Part shown: piece after piece, positions 36,167 to 41,585 of the stretch
Numbering within the stretch: the stretch's first letter is position 1
Layout of the letters: every line of letters begins with the position of its first letter
Source of the DNA: Nocardia iowensis
GTDB lineage: Bacteria; Actinomycetota; Actinomycetes; Mycobacteriales; Mycobacteriaceae
Assembly: GCF_019222765.1 (NCBI RefSeq)
Contig: NZ_CP078145.1
Span: 3,348,001 to 3,412,000, forward strand
Direction: 5' to 3'
DNA length: 64,000 nt
Made by a program: the position numbers and the translations under genes
Notes under the pieces: model-generated
What the model was told of the DNA's origin: nothing
The model's input: the letters and a program-made list of their open reading frames with translations, nothing else
The model's database searches: none

Positions 36167-36715
36167 ATGACCGAGCTCGGACCCGTCGCCTGGCCACCCT
36201 CCCCGATCAGAACCGAGCGGCTGGTGCTCCGCGAGTCCGAGACCCGGGACCGCGCGGCGTTCATCGAACTGTTCGCCTCGCCCGAGGTGGGTACCTACAT
36301 CGGTGGCTCTCGACCGCGTGATGAGCTCGAAAGCGAGATGCCTGAGGTGCCCGGGCGGCGCCCTGGCCTCTTCGTCATCGATCTCAACGGAACGATGATC
36401 GGCATGATCACGTTCGATGCGCGCGACACAGAGCGTCCGGGTCACGTCCGCCCGCATGCCGGAGATGTCGAACTCGGCTACCTGCTGTTGCCGGAGGCAT
36501 GGGGGTGCGGATACGCCGCCGAGGCGTGCACAGCGGCACTCGACTGGTTCGCTGCCGCCCTGCCCAGCGAGCCGCTGCTGCTCTGCACCCAGACTGCCAA
36601 CGACCGCGCGATGCGCCTCGCGGCGAAGCTGGGATTCACCGAGGTGGAACGGTTCGAAGAGTACGGCGCCGAGCAGTGGCTCGGCCTGTGGTCCTCGGTC
36701 ACGCCTTCCACTTGA
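36167..36715 (+). CDS. GNAT N-acetyltransferase
   Basis: 182 residues. IRTERLVLRESETRDRAAFIELF, the acetyl-CoA loop ELGYLLLPEAWGCGYAAEAC and a C-terminal NDRAMRLAAKLGFTEVE are typical of the RimJ-like GNAT fold. Acceptor unknown. It starts 10 bases after the small secreted gene. The next gene downstream has a structured leader. Confidence 0.9.
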   Translation: MTELGPVAWPPSPIRTERLVLRESETRDRAAFIELFASPEVGTYIGGSRPRDELESEMPEVPGRRPGLFVIDLNGTMIGMITFDARDTERPGHVRPHAGDVELGYLLLPEAWGCGYAAEACTAALDWFAAALPSEPLLLCTQTANDRAMRLAAKLGFTEVERFEEYGAEQWLGLWSSVTPST

Positions 36716-36780
36716 GCTCGTACTAAATAGCGCGCTGAAACCCGCGAACGTCGAAGGTTGTTTTCAGGTACGTTGGTCAA

Positions 36781-36896
36781 GTCTTCTCACCGGAAAGCCC
36801 GTGGGCTTTCTAAGGCTTCGGCCTCACCGGCAGGTTTCTCGGTGCCAGGTGGCATCGAGAAGGTGGGAGTCGTTTCCGACTCCGGTGAGGTGTGTC
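36781..36896 (+). promoter_or_regulatory. Highly structured 5' leader with alternative anti-SD pairing (candidate RNA switch)
   Basis: Four hairpins in tandem: 36793-36810 (GAAAGCC/GGCTTTC, loop CGTG), 36813-36824 (AGGC-TTCG-GCCT), 36836-36861 (TTCTCG/CGAGAA plus TGCC-AGGT-GGCA) and 36866-36883 (GGAGTCG-TTTC-CGACTCC). The Shine-Dalgarno segment CCGGTGAGG (36882-36890) is perfectly complementary to CTCACCGG at 36786-36793 and to CCTCACCGG at 36822-36830; the two pairings exclude each other. No U-run follows, so translation control is more likely than termination. Confidence 0.6.
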
Positions 36897-38162
36897 TTGA
36901 GCAATCCCGAATCACGACCTTTCTCTATTTCTTCCAGCCCACGGTCGCCGCGTACGCACGTAATCGTCGTCGGCGCGGGTCTTGGTGGCCTCTGCCTCGC
37001 GCAGGGCTTGCGGCGCGCCGGAATCAGCGTCGCCGTCTACGAGCGAGATGCCGCCGCGGTCACCCGTGCCCAGGGCCACCGGCTGCACATCGATGGACGC
37101 GGTCGACAGGCGCTGTCGGCGACGCTGCCACCGCACCTGTTCGAGCTGGTCGCGGCTGTCGCCGGGCGGCCGGCGCCGAACGCAAACGGTTTCGACCATC
37201 AGTTACGTCCGACCGGGGTCTTCTTCCTGGACGATTCGGAGCCGGGCCCTGCCACCCACGCCGACACAATGCCCGCGCACACCGTCATCGATCGGCAGGT
37301 GCTGCGCCGGATCCTTCTCACCGGGCTCGACGACATCGTTCATTTCGGCCGCCGTTGCCTCGGATACGACAGTGACGCGGACACCGTCACAGCACGGTTC
37401 GCCGATGGCAGTTCCGCACGGGGTTCGGTGCTGGTCGCCGCAGACGGTGTCGGTTCGGTGATCCGCGCCCAGCGTCTGCCGCACGCACGTGTCGTTGACT
37501 CCCAGGTCCGCCTGATCTACGGCCGGGTGCCACTGACACCCGGCCTGCGACGCGCGCTGCCGCCGGAGCTGATCAGCATCTTCAATTCGGTTGTCGGGCC
37601 AGGCAATCGGTTCGTCGGCATTGCGCCAGTGCAGTACCGTCAACCACTGGTAGCGGCCGCGTCTCGGCTGGCGCCCGAGGTGACTTTCGAGCCGGCCGAG
37701 GACACGCTTGCGGTGATGTTCGGTCGTCGCCGCGATCGACTCGGGCTCTCCGACTCGGAATTGCGCGCTGCTTCCGGTCGGCGACTGCGCGAGGTGGTGC
37801 TCGAACAGATTTCCGGTTGGCATCCGCTGGTGACCCGGATCATCGAGAAGTGGACTCCCTCCAGCGTTTACCCGATAGCCGTGCGCTCCAGCGTTCCCGT
37901 CCCACCGTGGCCGACATCGAATGTGACCCTGCTCGGCGACGCGATCCACGCCATGAGCCCCGCCGCGGGCGCGGGCGCGAATATCGCGCTCCGCGACGCC
38001 GCTGCGCTCGCCACGGCGCTGACCGAGGCGACCAGCGGCCGCCCGCTCCGGGACTCACTGCGCGACTACGAACAGGCGATGATCGACGAAGGCTTCCGCA
38101 TGGTGCGCCTGTCGGCGGCGAACGGGACGCAAACACTGGGAGCAGACCCACTGCCGATCTGA
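36897..38162 (+). CDS. FAD-dependent aromatic monooxygenase (class A flavoprotein, TetX/PHBH-like)
   Basis: 421 residues from TTG 36897, which has GGTGAGG 6 bases upstream. FAD-binding GxGxxG: VIVVGAGLGGLCLAQGL (about residues 24-40) with the following acidic VYERD. Mid-protein RxxR-like VIDRQVLRRIL and the second FAD motif LLGDAIHAMSPAAGAGAN near the C-terminus. It should hydroxylate a small aromatic or polyketide substrate with NAD(P)H and O2; some relatives inactivate tetracyclines or rifamycins. The 5' leader is unusually structured (see 36781-36896), suggesting control by RNA structure. Confidence 0.9.
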   Translation: MSNPESRPFSISSSPRSPRTHVIVVGAGLGGLCLAQGLRRAGISVAVYERDAAAVTRAQGHRLHIDGRGRQALSATLPPHLFELVAAVAGRPAPNANGFDHQLRPTGVFFLDDSEPGPATHADTMPAHTVIDRQVLRRILLTGLDDIVHFGRRCLGYDSDADTVTARFADGSSARGSVLVAADGVGSVIRAQRLPHARVVDSQVRLIYGRVPLTPGLRRALPPELISIFNSVVGPGNRFVGIAPVQYRQPLVAAASRLAPEVTFEPAEDTLAVMFGRRRDRLGLSDSELRAASGRRLREVVLEQISGWHPLVTRIIEKWTPSSVYPIAVRSSVPVPPWPTSNVTLLGDAIHAMSPAAGAGANIALRDAAALATALTEATSGRPLRDSLRDYEQAMIDEGFRMVRLSAANGTQTLGADPLPI

Positions 38163-38706: not shown

Positions 38707-39642
38707 TTATCCGTCGATGGCCGGGCGTAGTGCCCCGGTGATTACCTGGGCGGATTGCGCGACCAACGGATCGTCGGCGGGTGCGTGTTCGTCGGTGTTG
38801 ATCGACAGCACTGCGATTACGATCGGCGCGTCGCTGTTGGGCGGCCAGGTCACCGCGGCGTCGTTGGTGAGCCCGTAGTCGCCGCCGCCGGTCTTGTCCC
38901 CAATTTTCCAGTCCTGCGGCAACCCGGCGCGGATCCGGCCCATGCCGGTGGTGCTGCGCAGCAGCCATTGGGTCAGCTGCTCGCGCTCGGGCTCGGCCAA
39001 TGCGTCACCGGACACGACCGCGCGGTAATCCGCGGCGAGTGCGGCGGGGGTGGTGGAGTTGTGCTCGGGGTTGGTGTCTCCGCTGTTGCTCAGTGGCTCC
39101 CAGTCGTCGAGGCTGGTGACGGTATCGCCCAGCGTCCGAACGAATTTCGTGATGGCTGTGGGTCCGCCGAGAAGTTTCAGCAGCTCGTTGGCCGCAGTGT
39201 TATCACTCTTTTCGATGGCCGCGGCGGCCAGGTCGCGCACGGTCATGCCGCTGTCGACGTGAGTTTCGGTGATCGGCGAGTACTTCACCACATCGTCGGT
39301 GCTGAACTGGATGACTGTGTCGAAGTAGCCGTCCGTCAGTGGATGATCACGAAGCAGTGCCGCGGCGGCCAGCGTCTTGAAGGTGGAGCCGATCGGGAAT
39401 CGTTCGTTCTCGCGGTAACCCAGCGCGGTGCCCGTCGCCGTATCGATGGCGAAGACACCGACTCGCGCGTGGTGACCGTTCTCGAGATCTTTCACCCGAG
39501 CGGTCGCCATCGCGGCCGCGGCGGAATCGGGCATCTGGGTGCGTTCCGTCTGCGATTCCGAGTTGGGCATCGAGCACGCACCGACCAGCGCGGCCGCCGT
39601 GACCGCGGCTAGCAGAGAACCGATGCTGGACTTGGCTGTCAT
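38707..39642 (-). CDS. Class A beta-lactamase, lipoprotein type
   Basis: 311 residues. Signal peptide with lipobox-like VGAC (Cys near residue 22), then the serine beta-lactamase motifs: STFK (active-site Ser-x-x-Lys), SDN, a Glu-Pro-x-x-Asn omega-loop (WEPLSN, so Glu166 and Asn170 are retained although the intervening residues are unusual), and KTGGGDYG (KTG). It hydrolyses penicillins and perhaps cephalosporins at the outer face of the membrane. AGGAGAG precedes the ATG. Divergent from a LysR gene, as in known Nocardia beta-lactamase loci. Confidence 0.94.
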   Translation of the reverse strand: MTAKSSIGSLLAAVTAAALVGACSMPNSESQTERTQMPDSAAAAMATARVKDLENGHHARVGVFAIDTATGTALGYRENERFPIGSTFKTLAAAALLRDHPLTDGYFDTVIQFSTDDVVKYSPITETHVDSGMTVRDLAAAAIEKSDNTAANELLKLLGGPTAITKFVRTLGDTVTSLDDWEPLSNSGDTNPEHNSTTPAALAADYRAVVSGDALAEPEREQLTQWLLRSTTGMGRIRAGLPQDWKIGDKTGGGDYGLTNDAAVTWPPNSDAPIVIAVLSINTDEHAPADDPLVAQSAQVITGALRPAIDG

Positions 39643-39704
39643 GACTGCTCTCCTGTGAAGGCCGATAAGGGGTCGATGGGCGCGACCGAGCATGGCACTC
39701 CCTC

Positions 39705-39764: not shown

Positions 39765-40658
39765 ATGGATATCGTCGAAGCCTGTCGAGCATTCGTGGCA
39801 GTCGGCGATTACGGCAGTTTCACCGACGGTGCCGCTGTGGCGCGCATCCCACAGTCGGTGGCCAGCCGACGGATCGCGGCGCTGGAGCGGCGTTTCGGAG
39901 CTCAACTGTTCAACCGGTCGACCCGCACGGTCACCTTGACCTCGTTCGGGCGCGAGTTGCTGCCGTCGGCCAAACGCCTGGTCGAGCTCGCCGAAACCCT
40001 GGAGCACAACGCCGAACGCGCCAGACTCCGGCCTTTTCGGATGGCGGTCCCGATTGTGTGCAACCCGCTGCAGCTGGCGCGGTTGATCGCCGCGGGGCGG
40101 TGCAAGGGGCTGAATCTGGACCTGCACGCCGCCGAGCCCGGAGAGCGCGCCGAGTCGCTTCGCACGATGGAGGTGCGAGCTGCTCTCGTGGCGGTCCCGC
40201 CCGGTGAGGGCACCTGGCGGGTGCCGCTGGGGCTCGCCGGTGGCATCGCTGTGCAAAGCCGGGCACTGTATATGGAGTCGCTGCGGCCCAGCCGTGCCGA
40301 CGAGGACGCCCGCCGCCGCCGCGTCTGGCTGCAGCCTGAAGACGATGTACCGCACATTCGGGACCCGCTCACCCGGCTCGGTGCCGCGGTGGGATTGCAG
40401 CCCGCGCAGGTGCAGGTAGCGAACTCGGTCGCGGCCGCCGCGGCCGAAGCGCTCGGTTCGACCGATCTACTGCTCTGTTCGGCGAGCCAAGCCGAGGAGC
40501 TGGACCTGCACTGGCGGCAGATCGGCGAGCTGACCGAGTTGGCTCGCGGCTACCGGCTCGTGACCGGGCTGAGCGAGGACACGCAGCGAACCCATACGCT
40601 GTCCGCCGCCGAGATCGGGCGCTGTCTCGGTGCGCCCGAGGCCGACAGATCGGGGTAA
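39765..40658 (+). CDS. LysR-family regulator (AmpR-like context)
   Basis: 297 residues. HTH: AFVAVGDYGSFTDGAAVARI then QSVASRRIAALERRFGAQLF; the effector domain is less typical. It is divergent from the beta-lactamase with a palindrome between them, the layout of ampR-ampC, so it probably regulates that gene. It reads directly into the serine hydrolase 24 bases downstream. Inducer unknown; in AmpR it is a cell-wall fragment. Confidence 0.9.
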   Translation: MDIVEACRAFVAVGDYGSFTDGAAVARIPQSVASRRIAALERRFGAQLFNRSTRTVTLTSFGRELLPSAKRLVELAETLEHNAERARLRPFRMAVPIVCNPLQLARLIAAGRCKGLNLDLHAAEPGERAESLRTMEVRAALVAVPPGEGTWRVPLGLAGGIAVQSRALYMESLRPSRADEDARRRRVWLQPEDDVPHIRDPLTRLGAAVGLQPAQVQVANSVAAAAAEALGSTDLLLCSASQAEELDLHWRQIGELTELARGYRLVTGLSEDTQRTHTLSAAEIGRCLGAPEADRSG

Positions 40659-40682
40659 TGATTCGACAGACCGGAGGTGCTA

Positions 40683-41585
40683 GTGGGAGTGGCCCAGATT
40701 CTGCGGGCGGCACGAGAGGACCTGGACAGCGCGGGGTTACGCGGGTCCTTCCTGGTTCGCGATCTCGATTCCGGTGACGAGCTCGGGATCGACGCCGAGG
40801 CGGAGTACCCGTCGGCTTCGCTGGTCAAAGTGCCGTTGGCGGTCGTCACCCTGGAGCGCATCGCCCGTGGCGAGCTCGATCCGGTGACACCGATCGTGGT
40901 GCAGCCGGGCCGCGTGACCGCGCCTGGCCCGGTCGGGGTGACCAAATTCCGCCATCCCGCCACGATCGCGCTCGAAGATCTGCTCTATCTCACCCTGTCG
41001 ATCAGCGATAACGCCGCTGCGGACGCACTATTCGGGCTCACCCCACCCGAGGCGGTGGCCGCCGAACTGACTCGCCTCGGTGTCGAGGGGATCTCCGTAC
41101 GGCACCTCCTGGACGAGCTCACCCGGACGCCGACCGAGATGCTCGCACCCGAGCATGCCCATCTCGCGCACACCCTCGCGATCACCGCGACGACGGCCGG
41201 ACACGGACACCCGGTCCCGCAACTCGATATCAGCCGCGCGAACACCGGTTCAGCCCGCGCGTTCGTCGAACTGCTGCACAAGATCTGGCGGCCCAGCAGT
41301 ATTCGGCCCGCAGCTGCGGCGCAGGTCCGCCGGCTGATGGGGGAGAATATGCTGCGCAACCGGCTGGCCCCCGACTTCAGCTGCGACGCGTCCCGATGGT
41401 CATCGAAGACCGGAACCTTGATCAACCTCCGCCACGAAATCGGCGTGGTCGAGCACGCTGACGGCCAAGTCTTCGCCGTCGCCGCCCTCACCGAATCACG
41501 AGTCCCCGCCGCCGCCCAACCCGCCGCGGAAGCGGTGATGGCCAGGGTCGCCAGGCGGCTCCGCGATGAACTGCGACGGATGTAG
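40683..41585 (+). CDS. Serine hydrolase of the class A beta-lactamase fold
   Basis: 300 residues from GTG 40683 (GGAG at 40673-40676). No signal peptide. SASLVKVPLAV supplies Ser-x-x-Lys, SISDNAAAD the SDN, and SSKTGTL the KTG motif. I see no clear equivalent of the omega-loop Glu, so it may be a D,D-peptidase-like or penicillin-binding hydrolase rather than an efficient beta-lactamase. Being cytoplasmic and 24 bases after the LysR gene, it could process a muropeptide signal; that is speculation. Confidence 0.82.
   Translation: MGVAQILRAAREDLDSAGLRGSFLVRDLDSGDELGIDAEAEYPSASLVKVPLAVVTLERIARGELDPVTPIVVQPGRVTAPGPVGVTKFRHPATIALEDLLYLTLSISDNAAADALFGLTPPEAVAAELTRLGVEGISVRHLLDELTRTPTEMLAPEHAHLAHTLAITATTAGHGHPVPQLDISRANTGSARAFVELLHKIWRPSSIRPAAAAQVRRLMGENMLRNRLAPDFSCDASRWSSKTGTLINLRHEIGVVEHADGQVFAVAALTESRVPAAAQPAAEAVMARVARRLRDELRRM

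Follow-up and report, generated by a model that had tools for sequence, protein, structure and literature searches.

To our knowledge, natural antibiotic-sensing riboswitches are rare and contested. Among the families counted in Rfam is the yjdF riboswitch. As described in PMC4793209, this RNA was an orphan candidate that was later shown to bind diverse azaaromatics, and it sets a precedent for an RNA that senses aromatic compounds. The guanidine riboswitches, in the account of PMC7736828 and PMC7266159, are RNAs that switch on exporter genes in response to a small molecule, and a survey of 50 genomes offers among its motifs a Streptomyces dauA motif candidate that takes in the Shine-Dalgarno (SD) sequence (PMC11109978); the main text of this survey mentions neither monooxygenase, efflux or multidrug, nor Nocardia or Amycolatopsis. 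Lastly, according to PMC9410878, integron-cassette aminoglycoside resistance genes are not under riboswitch control.

Here, we describe a leader RNA that precedes an FAD-dependent monooxygenase gene in a 64,000-nucleotide stretch of Nocardia iowensis DNA, henceforth the window. Unlike the yjdF riboswitch, which goes with other genes, and unlike the guanidine riboswitches, it has no match in Rfam, and the genes concerned here are DrrA and DHA2 exporters and a monooxygenase. At the gathering level, none of the 4227 families of Rfam 15 matches in the whole window or in 10 related loci, which agrees with a preliminary description of this DNA that recognized no known riboswitch class. Permissive E-value searches of positions 36700-37000 and 15 related loci returned four matches, none of which reaches the gathering level and each of which is to an unrelated family; the only one from 36700-37000 lies outside the leader. 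We found no report of the element in the open-access literature searched, which is not proof of its absence from print. In our view, sequence comparison establishes the leader as a cis-regulatory RNA that is conserved and has no entry in Rfam.

The leader and its gene in the window

The features of the locus, in window coordinates, are the following:

36769..36774, forward strand: promoter -10 hexamer TACGTT, 6 nt 5' of the first P1 base
36781..36791, forward strand: P1 5' strand (GUCUUC-U-CACC), the inferred RNA 5' end; includes most of the first anti-SD segment
36793..36810, forward strand: P2 hairpin, restricted to monooxygenase-type leaders and absent in six efflux leaders
36813..36824, forward strand: P3 hairpin (AGGC-UUCG-GCCU), which competes with P6
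36821..36828, forward strand: P6 5' strand (GCCUCACC), the second anti-SD segment of the preliminary description; partner 36884-36891
36836..36861, forward strand: P4 hairpin, with two-sided changes in the 17- and 23-leader alignments
36862..36871, forward strand: P1 3' strand (GGUGGGAGUC), which overlaps P5
36866..36883, forward strand: P5 hairpin of the SD-sequestered state (92.4% of cells paired, zero two-sided changes)
36884..36891, forward strand: P6 3' strand (GGUGAGGU), which includes most of the Shine-Dalgarno core
36897..38162, forward strand: FAD-dependent monooxygenase, TTG start, PHBH/TetX-like fold

The four hairpins reported in the preliminary description (P2 to P5) all lie where it had placed them, as do its two anti-SD segments, CTCACCGG (36786-36793) and CCTCACCGG (36822-36830), both of which are complementary to the ribosome-binding segment CCGGTGAGG (36882-36890) exactly as described. 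For 8 of the 63,780 nine-mers in the window, the 110 nt upstream hold two perfect complements at separate sites, each at least 8 nt long; 481 have one. The 130-nt window RNA has a minimum free energy (MFE) of -60.1 kcal/mol (z -3.4), and one of 200 dinucleotide shuffles folds equally well or better. An SD-like GAGGUG can be read at 36887-36892, and the window sequence has no U-run terminator after the leader. The earlier proposal that control acts on translation is supported.

A TAnnnT hexamer ends 5-7 nt 5' of P1 in 22 of 23 leaders (the exception is L033), compared to 4 of 1518 comparable stretches farther upstream. Given this fixed promoter spacing, the RNA 5' end is placed at P1, with which the transcript most likely begins. 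Among the 17 monooxygenase-type leaders described below, lengths range from 115 to 122 nt with indels that are not multiples of three, and seven are interrupted by stops in the frame of the gene; both observations argue against a coding leader. Nor is an upstream ORF conserved in these 17, four of which have no ATG, and no ATG is common to all. A coding leader or upstream peptide was thus rejected for this type. In the window itself, the monooxygenase frame is open through the leader up to an ATG at 36417, and an automatic gene caller could mistake this 581-codon frame (36417-38162, forward strand) for a 581-residue protein.

The position of the start codon is kept across the 17 leaders (TTG in 14, GTG in 3). 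By its PF01494 domain and fold criteria, the window enzyme is a class A FAD monooxygenase of the PHBH fold. The preliminary description had called it TetX/PHBH-like. The enzyme scores far under both curated cut-offs for Tet(X) and tetracycline destructases (NF033476, 44.0 versus 550; NF033111, 52.6 versus 750), and its closest structure is 4hb9, a putative monooxygenase. The cut-off of the curated NCBIfam model for rifampin monooxygenase (Rox) was likewise not reached (46.9 versus 800). Beside the locus, the window encodes a class A beta-lactamase (38710-39693, reverse strand; 294 versus a cut-off of 200), a LysR-type regulator (39765-40655, forward strand) and a second beta-lactamase-like protein (40677-41582, forward strand). 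Leaving aside the gene and the frames in its shadow, the ten compared loci of this leader type (leader A) have no ORF family that recurs in three or more of them, and the conserved unit is therefore the leader plus the gene.

Homologous leaders and their crossing pairings

Our alignment of leader A (A7) comprises 17 distinct full leaders, including that of the window, from Nocardia, Amycolatopsis, Crossiella, Pseudonocardia and one further relative. Named carriers include Nocardia crassostreae, N. mexicana, N. tenerifensis, N. brasiliensis and N. vulneris, Pseudonocardia acaciae, Amycolatopsis oliviviridis and A. azurea, and Crossiella. Downstream lie orthologs of the window monooxygenase or decayed or lost copies: the gene is apparently intact in frame behind 14 leaders, and truncated, frameshifted or lost behind L058, L130 and L137. 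In a survey of 150 genomes of the genus, 21 have a relative of the enzyme at E <= 1e-85, in a total of 23 loci; eleven of these are at least 68% identical, ten with the same leader directly 5' and the eleventh (L038) at a contig end. A covariance model built from ten genus leaders (R1) scored above 100 bits in 11 of 148 genus genomes, the additional one (G012) preceding a truncated gene. It further reported 9 of 298 genomes in a sample of the order (E <= 0.1; the clear ones are G000 and G237) and 7 of 317 in a sample of Pseudonocardiaceae (E <= 0.005), four of which score 89-102 bits.

Weak covariance-model matches were not counted as members, namely those in L059-L061 (24-28 bits), in L063, L064 and L066-L069 of the order sample (22-27 bits), one in L112 (25.0 bits) and, at 16-18 bits, a pair in L124 and the second match of L101; a tblastn search with the enzyme as query turned up no relative in the vicinity of L059-L061, L063, L064, L066 or L068. 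L038 and L103 (contig ends) and L104 (N. wallacei; first 67 residues missing, no leader) were unusable for the leader, and L065 (26.1 bits), which retains the 5' half of the leader and a decayed gene, was excluded from A7 and is unreported by the later model R3. In two genomes of one genus (L137 in G808, L065 in G384), the monooxygenase gene has decayed or been lost but the leader, or its 5' half, survives, which suggests the loss of a dispensable cassette. Neither leader model (A, or B, see below) matches before the gene in L116, L119-L121, L123-L125, L127-L129, L133 and L134: relatives in Nonomuraea, Sphaerisporangium, Microbispora, Microtetraspora, Streptosporangium and others are without either leader. 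A search of plasmids with the window leader gave no convincing match, the three 31-nt matches in Rhodococcus being at E 0.1.

Of the 565 cells of the SD-sequestered structure (P2, P4, P5 and P6) on A7, 95.9% are paired, and 11 of 34 pairs have two-sided changes; in a control with the partners slid, 39-49% of cells are paired. P2 is paired in 94.7% of cells with two-sided changes in four of eight pairs, P4 in 96.6% with such changes in 5 of 11 (and in 9 of 10 in the 23-leader R3 alignment introduced below), and P3 in 98.5%, its stem being kept in L100 with a different loop. P6, which joins the second anti-SD segment to the SD, is paired in 99.3% of cells; pairing fails in a single cell, where L058 alone has a G (column 46), and the gene behind this leader is truncated. 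An A-U pair of P6 is exchanged for G-C in four of the 17 leaders (L101, L102, L130 and L138), possibly in one event, as the four carriers are related (Amycolatopsis/Crossiella group), and a C-G pair for U-A in one (L002). The covariance search suggested in the preliminary description thus recovered conserved stems in homologous loci, with compensatory changes in P2, P4 and P6, and its second anti-SD segment proved to covary with the SD.

The alternative state (P1 to P4) pairs in 93.6% of 548 cells of A7, and two-sided changes are found in 10 of 33 pairs, none of them within P1. P1 itself (columns 1-11 of A6/A7) is paired in 90.4% of cells in 23 sequences with zero two-sided changes; five of its ten pairs are invariant, monooxygenase-type leaders have U.U as pair 2, and L142, L173 and L185 have A.A as pair 4. 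P6 overlaps P3 and crosses P1, so that P1 and P6 are mutually exclusive as nested folds; P6 covaries, whereas P1 is complementary without two-sided changes.

We rejected the pairing of the first segment (36786-36793) with the SD as a conserved switch. None of its eight pairs has a two-sided change, all 500 shuffles are as good on every measure, and one pair breaks (A.C) in the same four leaders in which the second-segment pairing is kept by the A-U to G-C exchange; another is broken in L002 and a third in two further sequences. For 36781-36791, the segment 36862-36871 fits better as a partner than the SD segment. Of the junction envisaged earlier, the riboswitch-like P1 stands, but not its closure by the first segment and the SD.

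Energetically, the folds with the first and the second segment paired to the SD tie in the window RNA (-60.1 against -59.7). The MFE fold holds P6 in 13 of the 17 leaders and the first-segment pairing in four (L001, L032, L058 and L100), the window's among them, and with folds enforced by alignment columns, the first-segment fold ranges from 3.5 kcal/mol more stable than P6 to 6.3 kcal/mol less stable. Our preference for P6 is thus due to the comparison, not to energy. In the full RNA, the enforced P1 fold is 3.4-13.2 kcal/mol above the enforced P6 fold in all 17 leaders, while RNA that ends 5' of the SD folds into P1 in each of the ten leaders tried. Consequently, P1 can form first as the RNA is transcribed and would need a ligand to last; as a gap of up to 13 kcal/mol is larger than a normal equilibrium ligand payment, such a model needs kinetic control.

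A common core before efflux genes and an unrelated second leader

Three weak R1 matches (31-39 bits) share a core with leader A that consists of GACUUCUCACCG, the P3 hairpin, CCUCGCC..CAGC, the P4 hairpin and GGAAGGUGGRAGUC. A second model, R3, was built after this core had been seen and run in 335 genome searches. It reported 3 of 296 genomes in a sample of the class, namely the window's, G740 (79.6 bits) and one judged a chance match, and 18 of 39 chosen genomes; it added L173, from another family of the class, and L185 (Amycolatopsis). On inspection, L175 (29.5 bits) and L193 (28.9 bits) were put down to chance. A blastn search with the efflux-type leaders yielded a further copy, L194, on a Streptomyces chartreusis plasmid (E 2e-6, 5e-7 and 8e-4).

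Altogether, six copies of the P1-P3-P4 core were found 5' of drug-efflux genes. The genes at L140 and L173 are DrrA-type ABC ATPases (TIGR01188, 319.8 and 318.4 versus 312.45), and those at L141, L142, L185 and L194 are DHA2 (EmrB-type) exporters (TIGR00711, 270-318 versus 230.2), with TcmA (tetracenomycin) as the second-best family for three of these four, far under its cut-off. All six leaders keep the P1 5' strand, lack P2 and have SD-covering hairpins of their own, such as GUCACAAACCAU/AUGGUUGUGAC in L185. In the 23-sequence R3 alignment, which was fitted to the structure, 87.1% of 542 cells pair. One core is thus found before several gene types with one physiological theme: monooxygenase, DrrA ABC and DHA2 MFS.

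In L141, L142 and L194, a short ORF or N-terminal extension can be read from the leader SD (for instance, MVVTVRRARP in L142), and the DHA2 exporter starts up to ~310 nt past it; in L185, the exporter itself begins at the leader SD (MVVTFRRAN). It is possible that attenuation by an upstream ORF is layered on the leader in the former three.

More distant FAD monooxygenases are preceded by a second candidate riboswitch-like RNA, leader B, which is unrelated to the window leader. It occurs in Nocardia, Amycolatopsis, Kibdelosporangium and Actinocatenispora, in all 12 genus relatives at 44-51% identity (alignment A2 holds ten of these loci, the near-duplicates L005 and L042 being left out) and in 24 of 25 relatives retrieved from the genus to which G237 belongs (presumably Amycolatopsis). 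Its layout is GGACGYGCGAAGAC..CCGG-UAUGGGUUAGU-CCGG..ACCUGUGCGUCC, followed by a hairpin covering the SD whose start is abutted exactly by the end of leader B's own P1. In A8, an alignment fitted to the model and comprising 29 chosen loci rather than all those found, 92.5% of 822 cells pair, with two-sided changes in 18 of 30 pairs. One of these loci serves as an example:

L004:2671-2798, reverse strand: leader B

No Rfam family matched in the ten B loci scanned. The leader-B model (R2) reported 27 of 80 genomes in the genus of G237 and 13 of 148 in that of the window, 11 of them above 60 bits; its 0 of 296 in the class-wide sample shows little, as this sample is without a known positive. R2 matches in L154-L156 (29-32 bits) were not counted as members, and when these were searched by tblastn with the enzyme, L154 gave a short fragment (63% across 46 residues; E 7e-5) while neither L155 nor L156 gave a relative. 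Additional leader-B copies at L167, L168 and L169 (42-44 bits) have still more distant monooxygenase paralogs downstream, with 36-38% identity to the window enzyme.

Proposed mechanism and alternatives

The most likely reading of the leader is that of a riboswitch. We consider it probable that it acts as a translational ON switch for a toxic small molecule, in which a P1 aptamer fold competes with the SD-sequestering P6 fold. The nascent RNA would form P1 and P3 first, and the ON switch would be kinetically set. Without ligand, 36821-36828 would pair with 36884-36891 (P6) around P4 and P5, and little translation would occur. With it, a toxic small molecule would bind the core (P1, 36781-36791/36862-36871, together with P3 and P4, P2 being an add-on); the ligand-held P3 would retain the 5' strand of P6, P1 would retain bases of P5, and the ribosome-binding site would be left free for the detoxifying enzyme to be made. 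In other actinomycetes, relatives of the core would drive efflux pumps via different SD-sequestering hairpins, and the ligand would be the compound broken down by the enzyme or exported by the pumps.

In this model, we infer ligand binding, the direction of switching and the type of ligand, a toxic and probably aromatic natural product. The gene content (PHBH/TetX-fold oxidase, DrrA and DHA2) and the lack of conserved neighbors in ten loci suggest an external toxic, probably aromatic compound. The link to such compounds made in the preliminary description is plausible in view of the oxidase and pump contexts, but it is only a lead, as DrrA and DHA2 are broad families.

Alternatively, the leader could be genuinely regulatory but bind a protein or the ribosome; its partner could be an RNA-binding protein, or ribosomes that a drug has stalled on a short ORF upstream. 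The short ORFs or extensions at the leader SD in L141, L142 and L194 would suit drug-dependent stalling, and the nearly invariant purine stretch AGGUGGGAG looks like a ribosome-binding site. We nevertheless think this unlikely: no upstream ORF is conserved among the monooxygenase leaders, the exporter of L185 starts directly at the leader SD, and the conserved part is a compact junction from the inferred +1. Still less probable is a static structure that lowers translation or stabilizes the mRNA without responding to a signal. An SD-sequestering fold is indeed the MFE in all 17 leaders, yet two crossing pairings are kept across families, unpaired letters are highly conserved and the core precedes unrelated detoxification genes. 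Lastly, although hairpins are inverted repeats, it is most improbable that the stretch is a DNA element of operator palindromes, as it lies entirely 3' of the -10 hexamer, changes in P2 and P4 preserve pairing rather than sequence, and P6 joins segments 55-70 nt apart, SD included.

Going beyond the single leader, we tentatively entertain, as a possibility that is rather less likely than the switch itself, a riboswitch class that senses antibiotic-like aromatic natural products and, in actinomycetes, induces the DrrA and DHA2 pumps that export them as well as the enzyme that destroys them by oxidation; the unrelated leader B on the same enzyme family may respond to the same ligand or to a related one. 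That efflux pumps of two kinds and an enzyme resembling a drug oxidase have one core in common points to an RNA that senses toxins. Since one RNA serves several gene types, the question of its ligand is directly testable in vitro, and the identity of this ligand would name the substrate of otherwise uncharacterized resistance-like genes.
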